This document shows positions 22,386-30,451 of a stretch of DNA of 64,000 bases, in pieces (position 1 is the stretch's first letter; each line of letters opens with the position of its first letter). The stretch comes from Pyrococcus sp. NA2 (GTDB lineage Archaea; Methanobacteriota_B; Thermococci; Thermococcales; Thermococcaceae). The notes under the pieces are model-generated. The model saw nothing but the letters and a program-made list of their open reading frames with translations, was not told the origin of the DNA and ran no database searches. The translations under genes were made by a program, and so were the position numbers. The stretch is taken from contig NC_015474.1 of assembly GCF_000211475.1 (NCBI RefSeq), forward strand, positions 930,001-994,000, given 5' to 3'.

Positions 22386-23432
22386 TTGCTCTTCGATCCA
22401 AGACCTAAGGAGAGGAGGGAAGACTTATTTGATAGGGAGAGGGAACTAACTGAACTCATTACATCAATATCAAAATACCCGATAACCTTACTCCTTGGAA
22501 TAAGGAGGACTGGAAAATCTTCCATTATCAAGGTTTCGCTAAATGAGAGTGATGTAATTGGAATTTATGTTGACGTTAGAAAGGCAATGAGAGGTGGTAG
22601 AGTTTCCGAGGAAAGGCTTAAACTCCAACTCTTAGGGAGCATTAGGAGGTTAAAGATAAAAGAGCCGGGATTCAAACTTGAAGTTGTCCCCTTAGACTTG
22701 ACCGACATATTCGACCTGTTCAACTCCTACGGGAAGAAAAGGAAGAAGACTGTAGTTTTGGTGTTTGATGAGGCGCAGTACTTTAGATTCTATGGGCCTA
22801 GAGGTGGTAAGGATTTCCTGTTGGCGGTTGCGTACTCTTACGACAACCATGAATGGGTGAGATTCCTCTTTTCCGGCTCTGAGGTTGGCTTACTCCATGA
22901 CTTCCTGGGGTTTGAGGATTCTAAGGCTCCACTCTTTGGTAGGATATACAACGAAATAACTTTGGAGCCCTTCCCCAGGGATCTCTCCATTGAATTTTTA
23001 AGGGAGGGCTTCAGGGAGGTTGGCCTCAATGTTCCCGAGGACGATATAGAGGGGGCTGTCGATGAGCTCGACGGCATTCCCGGGTGGCTGGTTGAATACG
23101 GTTACCACTATATGCACACGAGAAGCCATAAGAAGGCCCTAGAGAGAACGCTTCAAAACGCACTATCCTTGATAATGTCGGAGCTCTCTGAGCTTGAGAA
23201 GAGGAGTGAAAGGTACATAACGATCTTAAAGGCGATATCCCTGGGGATTAATAGGTGGTCCAGGATAAAGGAATACGTTGAAGCTAGAGATGGCCCAATA
23301 ACTAACGCAAGACTATCAGCTCTACTCAGGAACCTTGAGAAGATGAGCTGGATAAGATCAGAGCTCAAAAACGGGAAAAAGGTATATAAAATAGTTGATC
23401 CGGTCGTTGAGAGAATTATTAGGGGTCTATAG
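22386..23432 (+). CDS. Archaeal ATPase (PF01637-type), copy A
   Basis: A 348-residue P-loop ATPase of the archaeal family. It opens FDPRPKERREDLFDREREL, the family's typical N-terminus. Walker A is LLGIRRTGKSS (residues 37-46), Walker B is VLVFDEAQYF (124-133), and sensor SGSEVGLLHDFLG follows (near 163). The C-terminal winged helix (about 265-345) includes ILKAISLGINRWSRIKEYVE and NLEKMSWIRSELKNGKKVYK. TTG 22386 is the only start that keeps the conserved N-terminus, directly behind a double palindrome. Family members are numerous in Thermococcales genomes; their function is unknown. Its C-terminal half is closely matched by the truncated copy at 27064-27585. Confidence 0.88.
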   Translation: MLFDPRPKERREDLFDRERELTELITSISKYPITLLLGIRRTGKSSIIKVSLNESDVIGIYVDVRKAMRGGRVSEERLKLQLLGSIRRLKIKEPGFKLEVVPLDLTDIFDLFNSYGKKRKKTVVLVFDEAQYFRFYGPRGGKDFLLAVAYSYDNHEWVRFLFSGSEVGLLHDFLGFEDSKAPLFGRIYNEITLEPFPRDLSIEFLREGFREVGLNVPEDDIEGAVDELDGIPGWLVEYGYHYMHTRSHKKALERTLQNALSLIMSELSELEKRSERYITILKAISLGINRWSRIKEYVEARDGPITNARLSALLRNLEKMSWIRSELKNGKKVYKIVDPVVERIIRGL

Positions 23433-24672: not shown

Positions 24673-25071
24673 CTATGGGTTAATCATCCAGTATCTTTTC
24701 TTTTTTAGGCCTTTCTTTTTGAGCTCTTCAAACTTTTTCTTTGCTATTTTGTAAAACCCACTGTCATAGAGAACTTTTCCCTCGGTTATGGCATCTAGGG
24801 CTGAGGGAGAAAGATTCTCTAAAGCTTTTAGAAACTCTTCTCTAGTGTATGCAATGATATCCACAGGTAAAAGCTCCTCGTTTAACATGTAAAGCTCCCG
24901 AGTTCTCTCCAGCGGATTTCCCTTTATATTATCGGATATTATCACAAGATCGAAATCACTCGCCAAGTTGTAGTCTCCCCTAGCATAGGAACCAAAGAGG
25001 ATTACGGTGGCATCCCCTTCTAAATATGCCACTATCCTATCGATGAACCTTTTAAGTTTTTCCAAGCTCAT
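24673..25071 (-). CDS. mntA: MNT-type nucleotidyltransferase of a HEPN/MNT pair
   Basis: A 132-residue minimal nucleotidyltransferase. The catalytic segment is VILFGSYARGDYNLASDFDL (residues 23-42), with the GSxARG motif, the paired Asp residues (SDFDLVII) and a third acidic residue in LLPVDIIAYT (about 68-77). MNT enzymes neutralise partner HEPN ribonucleases by adding AMP residues. The gene overlaps the upstream HEPN gene by 20 bases on the same strand, the standard order. Both seem intact, unlike most toxin genes in this region. Confidence 0.88.
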   Translation of the reverse strand: MSLEKLKRFIDRIVAYLEGDATVILFGSYARGDYNLASDFDLVIISDNIKGNPLERTRELYMLNEELLPVDIIAYTREEFLKALENLSPSALDAITEGKVLYDSGFYKIAKKKFEELKKKGLKKKRYWMINP

Positions 25072-25465
25072 TTTTTAAGGCCTCGACAAACTTAATTATC
25101 GCCTCAGCATATGAAATTAACTCCTTGGCTACTTCCTCGGAATAATACTCAAATGGTGCTCCCTCGGGATATGCATCTGGATATCTTGGTGCTATATAGT
25201 TCCTATCGAGCTCCATTGCGTAGTATAGGAGCTTTTTTGGAACGTTGAATCCCATTCCTTTTAGTTCTCGCAGTAGCCTTGTTATGGAGTGACCTACTGG
25301 GGCAAGGCCTAATCCTCGTAGAACCGCCTTAACAGCTAATTCTGCCGCCTGTTGGGACTTAAAACTGGCCCATTCATAATATCCTTCCTTTAAGTCTGAA
25401 TAAGCGGATTTCAGAGTTCTCTTGGCCTCTTTAATCCACCGCTCATATTCACTATCCTTGAACAT
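25052..25465 (-). CDS. hepT: HEPN-domain protein, toxin of the HEPN/MNT pair
   Basis: A 137-residue, all-helical HEPN protein: YERWIKEAKRTLKSAYSDLK, YYEWASFKSQQAAELAVKAV, APVGHSITRLLRELKGMG and DRNYIAPRYPDAYPEGAPFE. The QQAAE helix and the RNYxxxRYPD motif are typical for HEPN proteins paired with MNT nucleotidyltransferases. The HEPN RNase site is probably made of the Arg and His residues near 100-110 and 57-66, but I cannot fix them without an alignment. It is the first gene of the pair and is probably transcribed from an AT-rich promoter at about 25480-25510. Confidence 0.85.
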   Translation of the reverse strand: MFKDSEYERWIKEAKRTLKSAYSDLKEGYYEWASFKSQQAAELAVKAVLRGLGLAPVGHSITRLLRELKGMGFNVPKKLLYYAMELDRNYIAPRYPDAYPEGAPFEYYSEEVAKELISYAEAIIKFVEALKNELGKT

Positions 25466-25729: not shown

Positions 25730-27060
25730 ATGAAGCGTTCAGTAACTGTAAAACTCCAGCCGAGTAAAGAACAAGAGAAAATTCTCTTCGAGTTAGCTGA
25801 CGCTGGGGCTAAAGTCTGGAATCGAGTGAACTACTTGCGGAGGCAGGAATTCTTTGAGGGCAAACTAGTTGACTTTAACAGGACGGAGAAGATTGTTTAC
25901 GAAGAATTCAAGCAAGAAATCGGTTCTGCAACTGTTCAACAGATAGCCAGGAAGAATGCTGAGGCTTGGAGGAGTTTCTTCACTAACATTGGCAAGAGGA
26001 AGCGGGGGAATTGCCCAAGTGGTTCAAGCCAAGACCCCCAAACTACTTGAAGGATGGTGGGAATAGAAAACCACTAATCATCCTCAGGAATGACCAATAT
26101 AAGATTGAGGATAACAAATTAATTCTGAAAGGTCTTGGCAAGTTCAAACGCTTGGAAATTCAATTCAAGGGGAGAATACACTTGAAAGGCAGGCAGGGGA
26201 GGTTAGAAATAACTTACGATGAAGTTAAGCGAAAATGGTACGCCCACATTTCATTTACTGTAGAAGAAAAATTAACCAGAAAAGGTTGGGTTAAAATCCC
26301 AAGACAACCCTTGGGCAACCTTTCAGCAGGAATAGACTTGGGTGTAAACAATTTAATGGCCGTTTACGTTGAGAACGGGGAAAGCTTCCTCGTGAATGGG
26401 AGGCCCTTAAAGAGCATTGGATTTTACTTTCAGAAGAAAGTAGCTGACTATCAGTCTAAACTCAACAAGTCGGGGGCTAAAACGAGTAGAAAACTCAGAA
26501 AACTGTACGAGAGGGCTAAGCTTCAAGCAAGGCACTATATTAACACTGCAGTAAGGCAAACTGTCGAGAGGCTTTACCATCTTGGAGTTTCAAGAATTAT
26601 CGTGGGCTATCCCAAAGGCATTAGCAGGAATTCTAACAAGGGTAAAAAGCAGAATTTCTTGCTTTCTCACATTTGGCGGTTCAATTACGTTATTAAACGT
26701 TTTATTGAAGTTGCTGAGGAGCATGGTATTCTCGTCGAGGTTGTTGATGAGGCTTTCACGTCTAAGCTTTGCCCCGTTTGCGGGAGGCCCCATGAAGGGG
26801 CTCGCTTTACTCGAGGATTATTTAAGTGTCCCGCAACGGGGCTCATCTTCAACGCGGACTTAGTTGGTGCCTTTAACATCTTGAAGAAGGTGGTAAAAAC
26901 AATAACCCCGAACTTGGGTGGTCTTTACGCCCAGGGGAGGGGTAATGGGCCTGAGACCGGGCCCTCGGGCGGAACCGAAACCGGTGACGGGAGTAGGTGG
27001 ATGAGAGCCCGTAAACCTCCCCGCCCGTTGAAACCCCGCCCTTCAAGGCGGGGAGGAGGT
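25730..27060 (+). pseudogene. tnpB: TnpB nuclease with a -1 frameshift, fused to ATPase remnant
   Basis: The N-terminal part (25730-26050) reads MKRSVTVKLQPSKEQEKILF. At GCGGGGGAA (about 26007-26013) one more G would continue it as GELPKWFKPRPPNYLKDGGN. The rest has the RuvC-like residues (SAGIDLGVNNLMAVYV; VVDEAFTSKLCPVCG; NADLVGAFNIL) and a zinc-finger region CPVCG...FKCPATG in which the fourth cysteine is not present. The frame has no stop at the expected end and runs through the right-end stem-loop into the ATPase C-terminus. TnpB is an RNA-guided DNA nuclease; this copy needs the frameshift repaired to be active. Confidence 0.82.
27034..27053 (+). repeat. Right-end stem-loop of the tnpB element
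   Basis: A perfect 7-bp stem CCCCGCC/GGCGGGG closes a CTTCAA loop. It lies at the 3' end of the tnpB reading frame, where the right end of the element and the 3' end of the guide RNA are expected. The DNA directly after it, from about 27054 or 27061, would be the guide sequence. Confidence 0.65.
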
Positions 27061-27063
27061 CAG

Positions 27064-27585
27064 GAGGAGATAACCGTTAAGCCATTTTCAAGGGAACTAT
27101 CCAAGGAATTCTTAAGGAGGGGATTCGAAGAGGTGGGAATGGAAGTTGAAGAGGAGTTAATAGAGAGGGCAGTAGAACTTTTGGATGGAATTCCAGGTTG
27201 GCTCGTGGAGTTTGGCTATAACTATTTGGAAACGAAGAGCTTTGAGAGGGCAATGGAAAACGTGATTCTAAAGGCCGAGAGATTCCTGGAAGGTGAGCTG
27301 AGAGAGCTCGAGAGGAGAAGCGGGAGGTACCTTCTGATATTGAAGGCGATAGCGATGGGTTTCGACAGGTGGGAGCTTATTAAGGATTACGTGGAAGTGC
27401 GGAGCGGAAAGATAGCAAATTCAAGGCTGGCAAACCTCCTCAGGAATCTGGAGAAGATGGGCTGGATAAGGAAGGACAACACAACAAAAAGATACGAGAT
27501 AATTGATCCAATTGTGATGAGGGTATTAAGGAACGTCAAGGCACGCAAGGAAGAGATAGGCAGGAATCATCAGTGGTTCACTTGA
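27064..27585 (+). pseudogene. Archaeal ATPase (PF01637-type) copy B, C-terminal third
   Basis: From ITVKPFSRELSKEFLRRGFE on, this matches the C-terminal half of ATPase A (ITLEPFPRDLSIEFLREGFR there), through LDGIPGWLVEFGYNYL, ILKAIAMGFDRWELIKDYVE and NLEKMGWIRK to IIDPIVMRVLRN. The P-loop domain is absent. It is read in frame with the upstream tnpB, so a chimeric product is possible on paper. The end overlaps the C-terminus of the convergent ATPase C gene by 60 bases. Its former promoter is probably 25586-25623. Confidence 0.82.
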
Positions 27586-28836
27586 AAAGTCATCCTTCGA
27601 TAGCGTTATGACCTCTTTTATCTTCCCAACTCTCAGTTTTGACGGCTTGGCATTTTCCCTCCATTTAACCTCGAAGCCAATTCCTTCCCTTGTTACGACG
27701 TCTATCTCCCTTCCATCCCTCCAATAGCCAACTTCATATCTCCTGGCTAAATGGGAAGCAACAACGCTTTCAACGATCTTATCCTCGCTGGGTTCCTCAA
27801 TCAGGCACCAGCGCGAGAAGAGATGGTATAGGAATGGATCGACGAAGTGGATCTTTTTCTCCCTCTTGAAGTTGGGTTCAAGTGTGTTTGGGTCGAAGTT
27901 ATAAAGAACCTTCACGATGAAGCTCTTTTCAAGGAATTCGATGTAGCTGAACACAGTCTTATGAGAGCCAATATCGACTTCCTTTGCGATCGTGTTCCAC
28001 CCTACTGGAGTCGGAACCCTCTTTAAAATGGTCTTTATCACTCTCTTTGCAATATCCTCACTCCTTCCGAGTCTTATCAAGTCTCCCCTGATCCAGGAGA
28101 GATAAGTGTCGTACGTTTCCTCGCTTACCTTTCCCCCCTCAAGGATATCCTTGACGGCCCTCGGGAATCCACCGCTTTTTAAATATAAAATAAAGAGGTC
28201 ATAGAGCTCCTCCCTCCACGGGCGTAGCTTTGAGCATTCCTTAACTTCGCTGATTCTTTTAATCCTGGGAAGTTTAGAGTAAATGTCTGGCCTCGCAACT
28301 TTCACGAATTCCCTGAAGCTCAGAGGGTTCATAACGATGTCTTTTCCTTTACCTCTTCTCCCAGGAAAAGTCTCAACTTCACCTTTGAGGTACATACTCA
28401 AGGAGCCTGTTAGAATTAAAACGTCCTTCTTGAATTTCCCCATGTCGATGTAGAGCTTTATCGCCCTGAACCACTCCTTTGGAAACGTTATCTCGTCCAG
28501 TAAGAAGTATGAACTTTCAATCCCCTCATTCTTCCTGAACTCCATGTATTCGTCCAAAACTTTCATGAGCTCCTTGTAGTTGCTTAAATAATCGCATCTA
28601 ACATAAAATATCGCCTTAGGGTTAATACCTTCATCCAGGGGCCTCTTTATGATTAGCTTCAATAGCGTTGTTTTTCCAACTTGTCTTGGGCCGAATATGA
28701 AGTTCAAGGAGAATTGCTCAAGTGAAACCCTCTCGATTATATTTGGAATCCACTTAACTTTGCTCTCCTTCCATTTTCTATAGTCCTCATCCTCCCCTAT
28801 GAACACTATCCTTCTACCATGGATTAAACTGTTCAA
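27526..28836 (-). CDS. AAA ATPase with DUF4143-type C-terminus, copy C
   Basis: A 436-residue P-loop ATPase. Walker A is FIFGPRQVGKTTLLK (residues 46-60), Walker B is SYFLLDEITFPKEW (about 109-122), and LILTGSLSMYL is sensor 1. A winged helix follows (IAKEVDIGSHKTVFSYIEFL), then a nuclease-like end with GREIDVVTREGIGFEVKWRE, the D...ExK pattern of PD-(D/E)XK folds. TTG 28836 is the only possible start after an in-frame stop. The promoter holds two palindromes around a TATA box (28841-28895). Function unknown; such ATPases are often suspected of mobile or defence roles. Confidence 0.85.
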   Translation of the reverse strand: MNSLIHGRRIVFIGEDEDYRKWKESKVKWIPNIIERVSLEQFSLNFIFGPRQVGKTTLLKLIIKRPLDEGINPKAIFYVRCDYLSNYKELMKVLDEYMEFRKNEGIESSYFLLDEITFPKEWFRAIKLYIDMGKFKKDVLILTGSLSMYLKGEVETFPGRRGKGKDIVMNPLSFREFVKVARPDIYSKLPRIKRISEVKECSKLRPWREELYDLFILYLKSGGFPRAVKDILEGGKVSEETYDTYLSWIRGDLIRLGRSEDIAKRVIKTILKRVPTPVGWNTIAKEVDIGSHKTVFSYIEFLEKSFIVKVLYNFDPNTLEPNFKREKKIHFVDPFLYHLFSRWCLIEEPSEDKIVESVVASHLARRYEVGYWRDGREIDVVTREGIGFEVKWRENAKPSKLRVGKIKEVITLSKDDFSSEPLMIPAYLFLACLDVP

Positions 28837-28840
28837 TCAT

Positions 28841-28895
28841 GTTGGTATTTGCATTACCAACGATTTAAAAATATCTTGGTAATGTCATTACCAAG
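28841..28895 (-). promoter_or_regulatory. Two palindromes flanking the TATA box of ATPase C
   Basis: On the minus strand the order is: palindrome TTGGTAATG-A-CATTACCAA (28876-28894, perfect; extended by one more pair to 28875-28895), then a TATA-like ATATTTTTAAA (about 28864-28874), then GTTGGTA-N7-TACCAAC (28841-28861), then the TTG start at 28836. Both palindromes share the half-site TTGGTA. Placing one on each side of the TATA box is the layout of a strong autorepressor or two-site operator. The half-site differs from those of ATPases A, B and D. Confidence 0.72.
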
Positions 28896-29087: not shown

Positions 29088-30428
29088 TTAAATCATCTCG
29101 CTCTCGAAATCCTTTAGATCCCATAGGAAGAAGCCCTCACCTTTGATGCTCTCCTTGTTCTCGATCTTCTTCGCTATCAACCCATAACATTTCTTCCACT
29201 TTTCCATTCCGATTAACTCACCTTTGCGCTCAAGGTCTTTTAAAATTCTCCTCGCTTCTTTCTCGCTGAGCTCCTTCCACTTAACCTCAACAAGCAAGGC
29301 CTTTCTCTCCTCACCCTTAAGGGCAACGATGTCGATTTCCTCCCCTTTGTGCCACCACCTTCCGATCTTGCTGGGCTTAATGACCCTCGTTAAGAACTCC
29401 CTTGAGACCTTTTCAAATGTCCTTCCGAGGTAAGCGTTAAAATTCTTCCGGAAATCCTCGATTGCGGGCTCGGGGTTAAGGGACTCTATCTCCTCATAGT
29501 GAGGGCTCACGAAACGGTGGTAAAATCTGAAGTACTCATCCTCAATCACGTAGATCCCTCTCTTGCCCTTTCTCTCAGTTATTGGGACTTCCCGCTTTAT
29601 GATACCAAGATTCGAGAGGACTCTAAGGTAGGAGGGCAGATCCTTTGGCTCTATCCTAGTGTACTGGGCAATTTCGTTGAGTCTTGTTTTCCCAAGGGCT
29701 ATTGCCTCGATTATCTGCATGTACCTGCTCGGATTCCTTAGCTCCTCCAGAAGGAGGAGCCTTGCTTCGTTGAATAGGAATGCACTCGGGTCAAAGAAGT
29801 TGGCTATTATCTCTTCATCGCTTCCAGTTCTGAAGAACTCCATGTACTTGGGAATCCCCCACGTGACGCCATAGATCCTTAGAAGCCTTTCAAAGTCCTT
29901 TCCAAACCATTCGACCATGTCGAAGAAGCGGAAAGGTTGAACCTTTAGAATCCCACTCGCCCTCCCGTAGAGGGGACTCTTGTAGCTGAGCACCTCGCGT
30001 TCCATCATTCCAACGCTTGAGCCGCAGAGGATGAGTGTAACATCAGAATCATCAAGGATTATATCCACTATCTCCTGGAATTCAGATACTATCCCTTTAT
30101 CGGCCTCTATTAAGTATGGAAATTCGTCAAGTATGACGATTAATTTTCCCTGTTCTCTTAGAAACTTGAATGCATCCCTGAAGCTTTCGAATCTTACAGG
30201 TGCATTTATAAAGGAGCTTATTTCCTGGGAGAACCTCTCTATGTCCTTTTCATACCCTCTCTGGGAACAGAGGAAATATATGCCCCTTTTATTCTCCAAA
30301 AATTTCCTTAAGAGGGCTGTTTTGCCAACTCTTCTCCTCCCATACACGACAAAAAGCCTATAACCTTCTCTCCATGCTCTCTCTAGAACTTCGAGCTCCC
30401 TATTTCTGTTCACAAATTTTCGAATCAT
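29088..30428 (-). CDS. Archaeal ATPase with DUF234 C-terminus, copy D
   Basis: About 446 residues. Walker A is VVYGRRRVGKTALL (residues 28-41), Walker B LIVILDEFPYLIE (96-108), and LILCGSSVGMMEREV is sensor 1. The winged helix (about 245-290) is followed by the DUF234 region with KGEEIDIVALKG and LLVEVKWKEL, a PD-(D/E)XK-like D...ExK pattern. ATG 30428 is favoured: the TATA-like TTTAAATA lies about 28 bases upstream, so the message is nearly leaderless; GTG 30443 is an alternative inside the palindrome. Function is unknown. It is the third intact P-loop ATPase of this cluster. Confidence 0.87.
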   Translation of the reverse strand: MIRKFVNRNRELEVLERAWREGYRLFVVYGRRRVGKTALLRKFLENKRGIYFLCSQRGYEKDIERFSQEISSFINAPVRFESFRDAFKFLREQGKLIVILDEFPYLIEADKGIVSEFQEIVDIILDDSDVTLILCGSSVGMMEREVLSYKSPLYGRASGILKVQPFRFFDMVEWFGKDFERLLRIYGVTWGIPKYMEFFRTGSDEEIIANFFDPSAFLFNEARLLLLEELRNPSRYMQIIEAIALGKTRLNEIAQYTRIEPKDLPSYLRVLSNLGIIKREVPITERKGKRGIYVIEDEYFRFYHRFVSPHYEEIESLNPEPAIEDFRKNFNAYLGRTFEKVSREFLTRVIKPSKIGRWWHKGEEIDIVALKGEERKALLVEVKWKELSEKEARRILKDLERKGELIGMEKWKKCYGLIAKKIENKESIKGEGFFLWDLKDFESEMI

Positions 30429-30451
30429 GATTATAATAAACACGATTCGAA
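30419..30451 (-). promoter_or_regulatory. Palindrome between TATA box and start of ATPase D
   Basis: TTCGAATCATG (30419-30429) and CACGATTCGAA (30441-30451) form an inverted repeat with 10 of 11 pairs and an AT-rich centre. It covers the start codon and abuts the TATA-like TTTAAATA. Its half-site CGAATC differs from those of ATPases A, B and C, but its place at the promoter is the same. Confidence 0.62.

Follow-up and report, generated by a model that had tools for sequence, protein, structure and literature searches.

What controls a gene whose TATA box is enclosed by two palindromes of nearly the same sequence? This question is raised by the promoter of ATPase C, a gene on the minus strand of the window, as we call the whole 64,000-nucleotide stretch of Pyrococcus sp. 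NA2 DNA analyzed here. Based on sequence comparison, we consider it probable that the ATPase-nuclease encoded by this gene represses its own promoter through a near-identical operator pair, with each lineage of the family carrying an operator of its own.

Promoter architecture and coding sequence of ATPase C

Read in the direction of the gene on the minus strand, the promoter consists of CC-TTGGTAATGACATTACCAA-G-ATATTTTTAAAT-C-GTTGGTAATGCAAATACCAAC-ATG-A-TTG (Table 1). A preliminary description of this DNA placed palindromes on either side of a TATA-like stretch, and the sequence confirms them: the distal palindrome has perfect 9-bp arms around one central base, the proximal palindrome has perfect 7-bp arms (GTTGGTA/TACCAAC), and the TATA-like stretch sits between their centers, which are 34 bp apart. 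Since both palindromes begin with TTGGTAATG, they are two copies of one 19-bp site. The paired-palindrome score of the promoter is 15/16, a value equalled by 1 of 2000 dinucleotide shuffles.

The same description had the second palindrome lying between the TATA box and a TTG start. Its position holds but the start does not, as orthologues use the ATG at 28840-28838 and the TTG at 28836 is simply the first start in the frame still open in Pyrococcus sp. NA2. The frame of the ancestral ATG differs from that of the remaining gene: codon 9 has changed from TGG to TAG, and a net 2 nt are deleted after it. The conserved NPWW motif is absent from the TTG-started ORF. The break (window 28814-28840) may represent early decay or a sequencing error; because the ancestral frame is broken, the local copy of ATPase C may be decaying. 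The remainder of the gene is intact, including the Walker and nuclease-like residues.

ATPase C had been described as a DUF4143-type ATPase with a PD-(D/E)XK-like end. The Pfam scores agree, with PF13173 (AAA_14) at 89.6 bits against a cut-off of 27 and PF13635 (DUF4143) at 52.7 bits against 28.1. Both domains stand in the order that defines the AAA_14-DUF4143 family, the catalytic-type residues are intact, and Walker B D114-E115 is invariant in the ATPase C alignment. A sequence search returned no solved structure for ATPase C. In its AlphaFold2 model (pLDDT 89.4, pTM 0.89), a winged helix-turn-helix (wHTH) domain is predicted between the ATPase and the nuclease-like domain, with pLDDT of about 90 or more over residues 258-331. 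As would suit an autorepressor, ATPase C has operator-like sites over its own core promoter elements together with this predicted domain.

Table 1 Features of the ATPase C locus, in window coordinates.
Feature	Position	Strand	Sequence or content	Basis
Candidate distal operator (palindrome 1)	28876-28894	-	TTGGTAATGACATTACCAA; BRE side of TATA	Sequence and orthologue conservation
Candidate proximal operator (palindrome 2)	28841-28861	-	GTTGGTAATGCAAATACCAAC; about -20 to the expected transcription start	Sequence and orthologue conservation
TATA box region	28863-28874	-	ATATTTTTAAAT; orthologues keep AATATTTTTAAA	
Ancestral ATG start	28838-28840	-	Orthologues begin ATG ATT GAA CAG TTT AAT CCA TGG TGG	
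TAG stop in ancestral frame	28814-28816	-	TGG to TAG, codon 9	Alignment with five orthologues
ATPase C ORF as called	27526-28836	-	TTG start, 436 aa; AAA_14 and DUF4143 (PD-(D/E)XK-like)	Pfam; predicted wHTH; PADLOC PDC-S01
Walker A	28666-28692	-	GPRQVGKTT, residues 49-57, invariant	Alignment A1
Predicted winged HTH	27844-28065	-	Residues 258-331 (H260-273, H280-287, H292-304, E308-314, E321-331)	AlphaFold2
HTH helices 2-3	27925-27999	-	Residues 280-304, best predictor of operator similarity	Whole-protein scans
Nuclease-like motif	27664-27708	-	E377-I-D379 ... E389-V-K391, invariant	Alignments A1, A2

The palindrome pair follows the gene

We compared ATPase C with 11 orthologous loci (L011-L021) from several genera, whose proteins are 66-81% identical to it; two of these (L016 and L017) are near-identical and L021 is a fragment. 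All but L018 carry the 54-bp cassette with the same spacing; at L018 the distal site shows decay in its outer arm. The preliminary description had proposed this comparison of homologous promoters and would have counted missing palindromes against its reading; the palindromes are kept. Over 11 sequences, those of the window gene and of ten orthologous loci, each 10-nt block from -60 up to and including the start codon has a mean pairwise identity of 0.55-0.95; between -160 and -60, all blocks are at the chance level of 0.23-0.29. Because identity falls to chance upstream of -60, the cassette is a property of the gene and not of its neighborhood.

The half-site had also been called private, and the motif searches bear this out. 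In the 1,861,320-bp genome of Pyrococcus sp. NA2, the two promoter copies are the sole matches to TTGGTAATNNNATTACCAA at up to 2 mismatches, and at 3 mismatches the motif is as frequent as its reversed control (16 versus 17 per strand). We then extended the search to 94 Thermococcaceae genomes, allowing up to 1 mismatch. The ATPase C promoter has a match in each of the 12 genomes that contain the gene's 5' part, and the remaining matches are promoter relics (G002, G003, G016, G023) or one site common to three genomes (G027, G033, G035), which in G027 lies inside coding sequence; the reversed control motif matched in one genome. As for the relics, G016 and G023 lack the gene but retain a 68-bp promoter piece with 85-88% identity to the promoter of L012, G003 retains the promoter and the first ~52 codons, and G002 retains the upstream palindrome. 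A short operator-like cassette of this kind travels with such genes and can outlast them as a relic.

The relics from which the gene has been lost occupy L316 1431-1498, L317 1590-1657, L318 1367-1583 and L319 1431-1561. In two of them both palindromes and the TATA box persist while the coding sequence is gone.

A host-wide regulon for this motif is rejected, as no promoter other than that of ATPase C and its relics carries it in the Pyrococcus sp. NA2 genome or among the 94 genomes. This bears on the explanation that competes best with self-repression, namely that a separate, unlinked transcription factor controls ATPase C through the palindromes. Small wHTH regulators of the Lrp, TrmB and MarR kinds are generally known to bind many archaeal operators near TATA boxes (TrmB is reviewed in PMC4158304). 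On the other hand, since the motif is found at no other promoter, such a regulator would have a single target, and its own gene would lack a site. The site also differs between lineages, each of which would need a new dedicated regulator, and just some 54 bp of upstream DNA moves with the gene between unrelated neighborhoods. We therefore regard an unlinked regulator as unlikely.

The layout recurs with different half-sites across the archaeal family

Judged by promoter sequence, the order palindrome, TATA, palindrome, start recurs in the archaeal AAA_14/DUF4143 family across many phyla, with other half-sites. The half-sites are TTGGTAAT in clade C, TTGATACT in clade T and TGAGAACT in clade G, and sister clades present TGAGAACTnnnAGTTCTCA, TTGATACTnnAGTATCAA, TGTGAAAGnnnnCTTTCACA and TTTGCAsT types in the same layout, which is found as well in distant relatives recorded as Culexmicrobium, Hydrothermarchaeum, Methanodesulfokora, Sulfolobaceae, Nitrososphaerales, Methanococcoides, Micrarchaeota and Diapherotrites. 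A paired score of at least 14 is reached by 34% of 86 non-redundant family promoters, compared with 3.0% of shuffles and 1.7% of 121 control promoters (family versus control, Mann-Whitney p 1e-20, a value that ignores shared ancestry). The center-to-center spacing has its mode at 34.0 bp (36 of 82 promoters).

Operator extraction was automated and is accordingly noisy. With sites chosen by palindrome score alone, but among 99 promoters preselected for good pairs, operator identity is 0.75 within one promoter versus 0.49 between promoters whose proteins share less than 45% identity (p 3e-31, again ignoring ancestry). A TATA-like stretch lies between the centers in 90 of the 99; as promoters with such a stretch earned a bonus during selection, this count is not independent. 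The TTGCCGAA group and some members of about 490 aa fit the operator-pair model poorly. No virus-borne relatives were found among viral contigs.

The suggestion that the promoter design is shared across ATPase subgroups is right in a loose sense only: the layout is general in the DUF4143 family over archaeal phyla, but not in the MCM_C-type ATPases of the same genome (L048-L050 and L052, including window gene 22386), whose private palindromes lie downstream of TATA. In the window, the MCM_C-type ATPase_2 gene at 22386-23432 has the paired palindromes TAAGTATCGGCACCGATACTTA and then TATCGGGGGCGATA ahead of its start.

Bacterial DUF4143 genes (L084, L093, L126, L110, L117) have palindromes around -35/-10, or from -10 to the ribosome-binding site, each gene with a half-site of its own. 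The L084 promoter reads GCCCAAAATTGGGC-TTTACATT-GCCCAAGTTTGGGC-TGTATAAT, one of a few striking cases among 36 mostly bacterial DUF4143 loci. The bacterial promoters (n=34) have a mean score of 11.94, with 18% at 14 or more, figures that are not comparable with the archaeal ones because the bacterial test used a wider spacing range. Single bacterial promoters with palindromes around -35/-10 are a hint that the rule may reach bacteria.

Operator similarity and the predicted wHTH domain

To ask which part of the protein follows the operator, we related operator similarity to protein similarity in windows along the whole protein, conditioned on whole-protein identity. The leading windows are residues 280-294, 290-304 and 285-299 (partial r 0.55, 0.49 and 0.47), and the same three lead again in a larger set (n=99; 0.34, 0.26 and 0.25). 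They coincide with helices 2-3 of the HTH in the structure, which was predicted afterwards. By domain, the partial r with operator similarity is 0.38 for the wHTH, 0.00 for the ATPase and 0.03 for the nuclease region.

With one representative per clade, the HTH signal is clear in sets of 27 and 34 clades, where each draw had 0-7 of 200 permutations reaching it. At 19 clades or fewer the covariation falls short of significance (an earlier, smaller set retained it at 18 clades but lost it at 11), so shared ancestry may account for part of the signal. We regard this covariation as supportive of recognition by the protein's own wHTH domain, not as decisive.

The domain comparison also concerns a second alternative, in which the PD-(D/E)XK-like domain would cleave or recombine DNA at the palindromes, so that the gene would be a mobile unit of the homing kind and regulation would be secondary. 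The family is indeed patchily distributed with many paralogues, gene-less promoter relics exist, and the nuclease-like residues E377, D379, E389 and K391 are invariant, all of which would suit such a unit. Against it, the sites are exclusively 5' of the gene and flank TATA at a nearly fixed spacing, no matching copy is found 3' of the gene in its own genome, the 94 genomes contain no solo site beyond the promoter relics and the one coding site, and the nuclease region is unassociated with operator sequence. We hold a homing-like unit to be improbable.

Promoter geometry and a proposed model of self-repression

In Thermococcus, transcription starts ~23 bp downstream of the TATA box (PMC4247193) or ~27 bp from the TATA center (PMC5316973). 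From these distances, the transcription start of ATPase C is expected at ~28840-28846. Neither palindrome would therefore be transcribed to any extent, and the mRNA would be leaderless or nearly so. The preliminary description took the upstream copy to lie probably outside the transcript and favored a DNA operator over an RNA structure; the TATA-to-start spacing favors this too, and extends it to both copies.

The inverted repeats are perfect and could form hairpins, and they might in principle act in RNA as part of a 5' leader. The distal repeat, however, is upstream of TATA, the expected mRNA contains neither repeat, and the two repeats resemble each other in sequence beyond self-complementarity; we consider this reading very improbable and reject it on promoter geometry. 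Chance palindromes in AT-rich promoter DNA have a negligible probability, for although 14% of shuffles reach 13/16, the ATPase C score is that of 1 shuffle in 2000, the layout recurs across phyla, and the conservation in orthologues refutes chance.

For self-repression by ATPase C we propose the following mechanism. Dimers of its own winged-HTH domain would bind both palindromes. Occupancy of the distal site would block the BRE side of TATA, and hence the entry of TBP-TFB, and occupancy of the proximal site would cover the DNA from TATA to the transcription start, where RNA polymerase enters. With both sites filled, about three helical turns apart, the promoter would be shut, giving negative autoregulation. 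The lineage-specific operator would be read by the lineage's own recognition helix, leaving paralogues of one cell free of cross-regulation. Engagement of the ATPase-nuclease, with invading DNA or an altered nucleotide state as examples of a trigger, would release the protein and so induce the gene.

A more general proposal, which we put forward as possible but doubtful, is that ATPase-nucleases of the PDC-S01 type (the PADLOC class matched by ATPase C, see below) are self-addressed sensors, one protein acting as effector, repressor and detector. Such a protein would idle on its private operator pair until engagement (invading DNA, DNA damage, nucleotide state) freed it, so that activation and induction would be one event, and operator diversity would insulate parallel copies.

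If archaeal PDC-S01 proteins do repress themselves via private operators, the first direct assay would be one of sequence-specific DNA binding. Their promoters would then provide a built-in reporter of what activates these proteins, as well as a large natural data set for the wHTH recognition code, and would explain how a genome maintains several related ATPase-nucleases without cross-talk.

Genomic neighborhood of ATPase C

Other ATPase genes lie close by. A long inverted repeat, TTCGAATCGTG-N11-CATGATTCGAA, spans the start region of the next one, at 29088-30443 (DUF234 type, PADLOC PDC-S27). At 26011-27585, an OrfB/IS605-type transposase ORF continues in-frame into the C-terminal end of an MCM_C-type ATPase; an insertion seems to have truncated this ATPase gene, which adjoins ATPase C. 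Close to the ATPases, at 24673-25465, there is a nucleotidyltransferase and HEPN pair, a make-up described for toxin-antitoxin modules and for the candidate PDC-M05.

Relation to known systems

ATPase C matches seven PADLOC models of PDC-S01, a large family of candidate virus-defence genes (best E 3.4e-37), and nine further family members that we tested match PDC-S01 as well, two of them from loci recorded as bacterial. We know of no described trigger or regulation of PDC-S01. The available portion of its source (PMC12988326) presents PDC-S01 as a candidate single-gene defence in which an ATPase is joined to a PD-(D/E)XK member, counts it as the fourth commonest defence among prokaryotes, and notes that most PADLOC candidates of this sort await validation; the description in that portion mentions the ATPase and the PD-(D/E)XK member but not a wHTH or promoter elements. 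We found no earlier report on the promoters of DUF4143, DUF234 or archaeal ATPases in a literature search that covered few subscription papers and preprints, which is not proof of novelty.

The best Foldseek matches of the ATPase C model in the PDB are Cdc6/Orc1 and NLR ATPases (2qby, 1w5t, NRC resistosomes; E 1e-7 to 1e-6). Like the model, these initiators (Cdc6/Orc1) and NLR-type STAND NTPases place a winged helix after the ATPase, but their full-length TM-scores with the model are low (0.2-0.4) and, to our knowledge, they have neither a C-terminal PD-(D/E)XK-like domain nor private promoter operators.

Autorepressing archaeal regulators of the Lrp, TrmB and MarR types share with ATPase C the palindromes over the core promoter and the wHTH, which in ATPase C is predicted. 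Those proteins are dedicated small regulators, whereas in ATPase C the wHTH is inside an ATPase-nuclease and the operator is lineage-specific. Autoregulated toxin-antitoxin and restriction-modification systems, as well as defence repressors such as RptR, the last as given in the available part of its report (PMC12255303), resemble the proposed arrangement in that a repressor acting on the effector's own promoter limits the synthesis of a potentially harmful effector. In these systems a separate antitoxin, controller or repressor binds the DNA, while in ATPase C effector and repressor appear to be one polypeptide.
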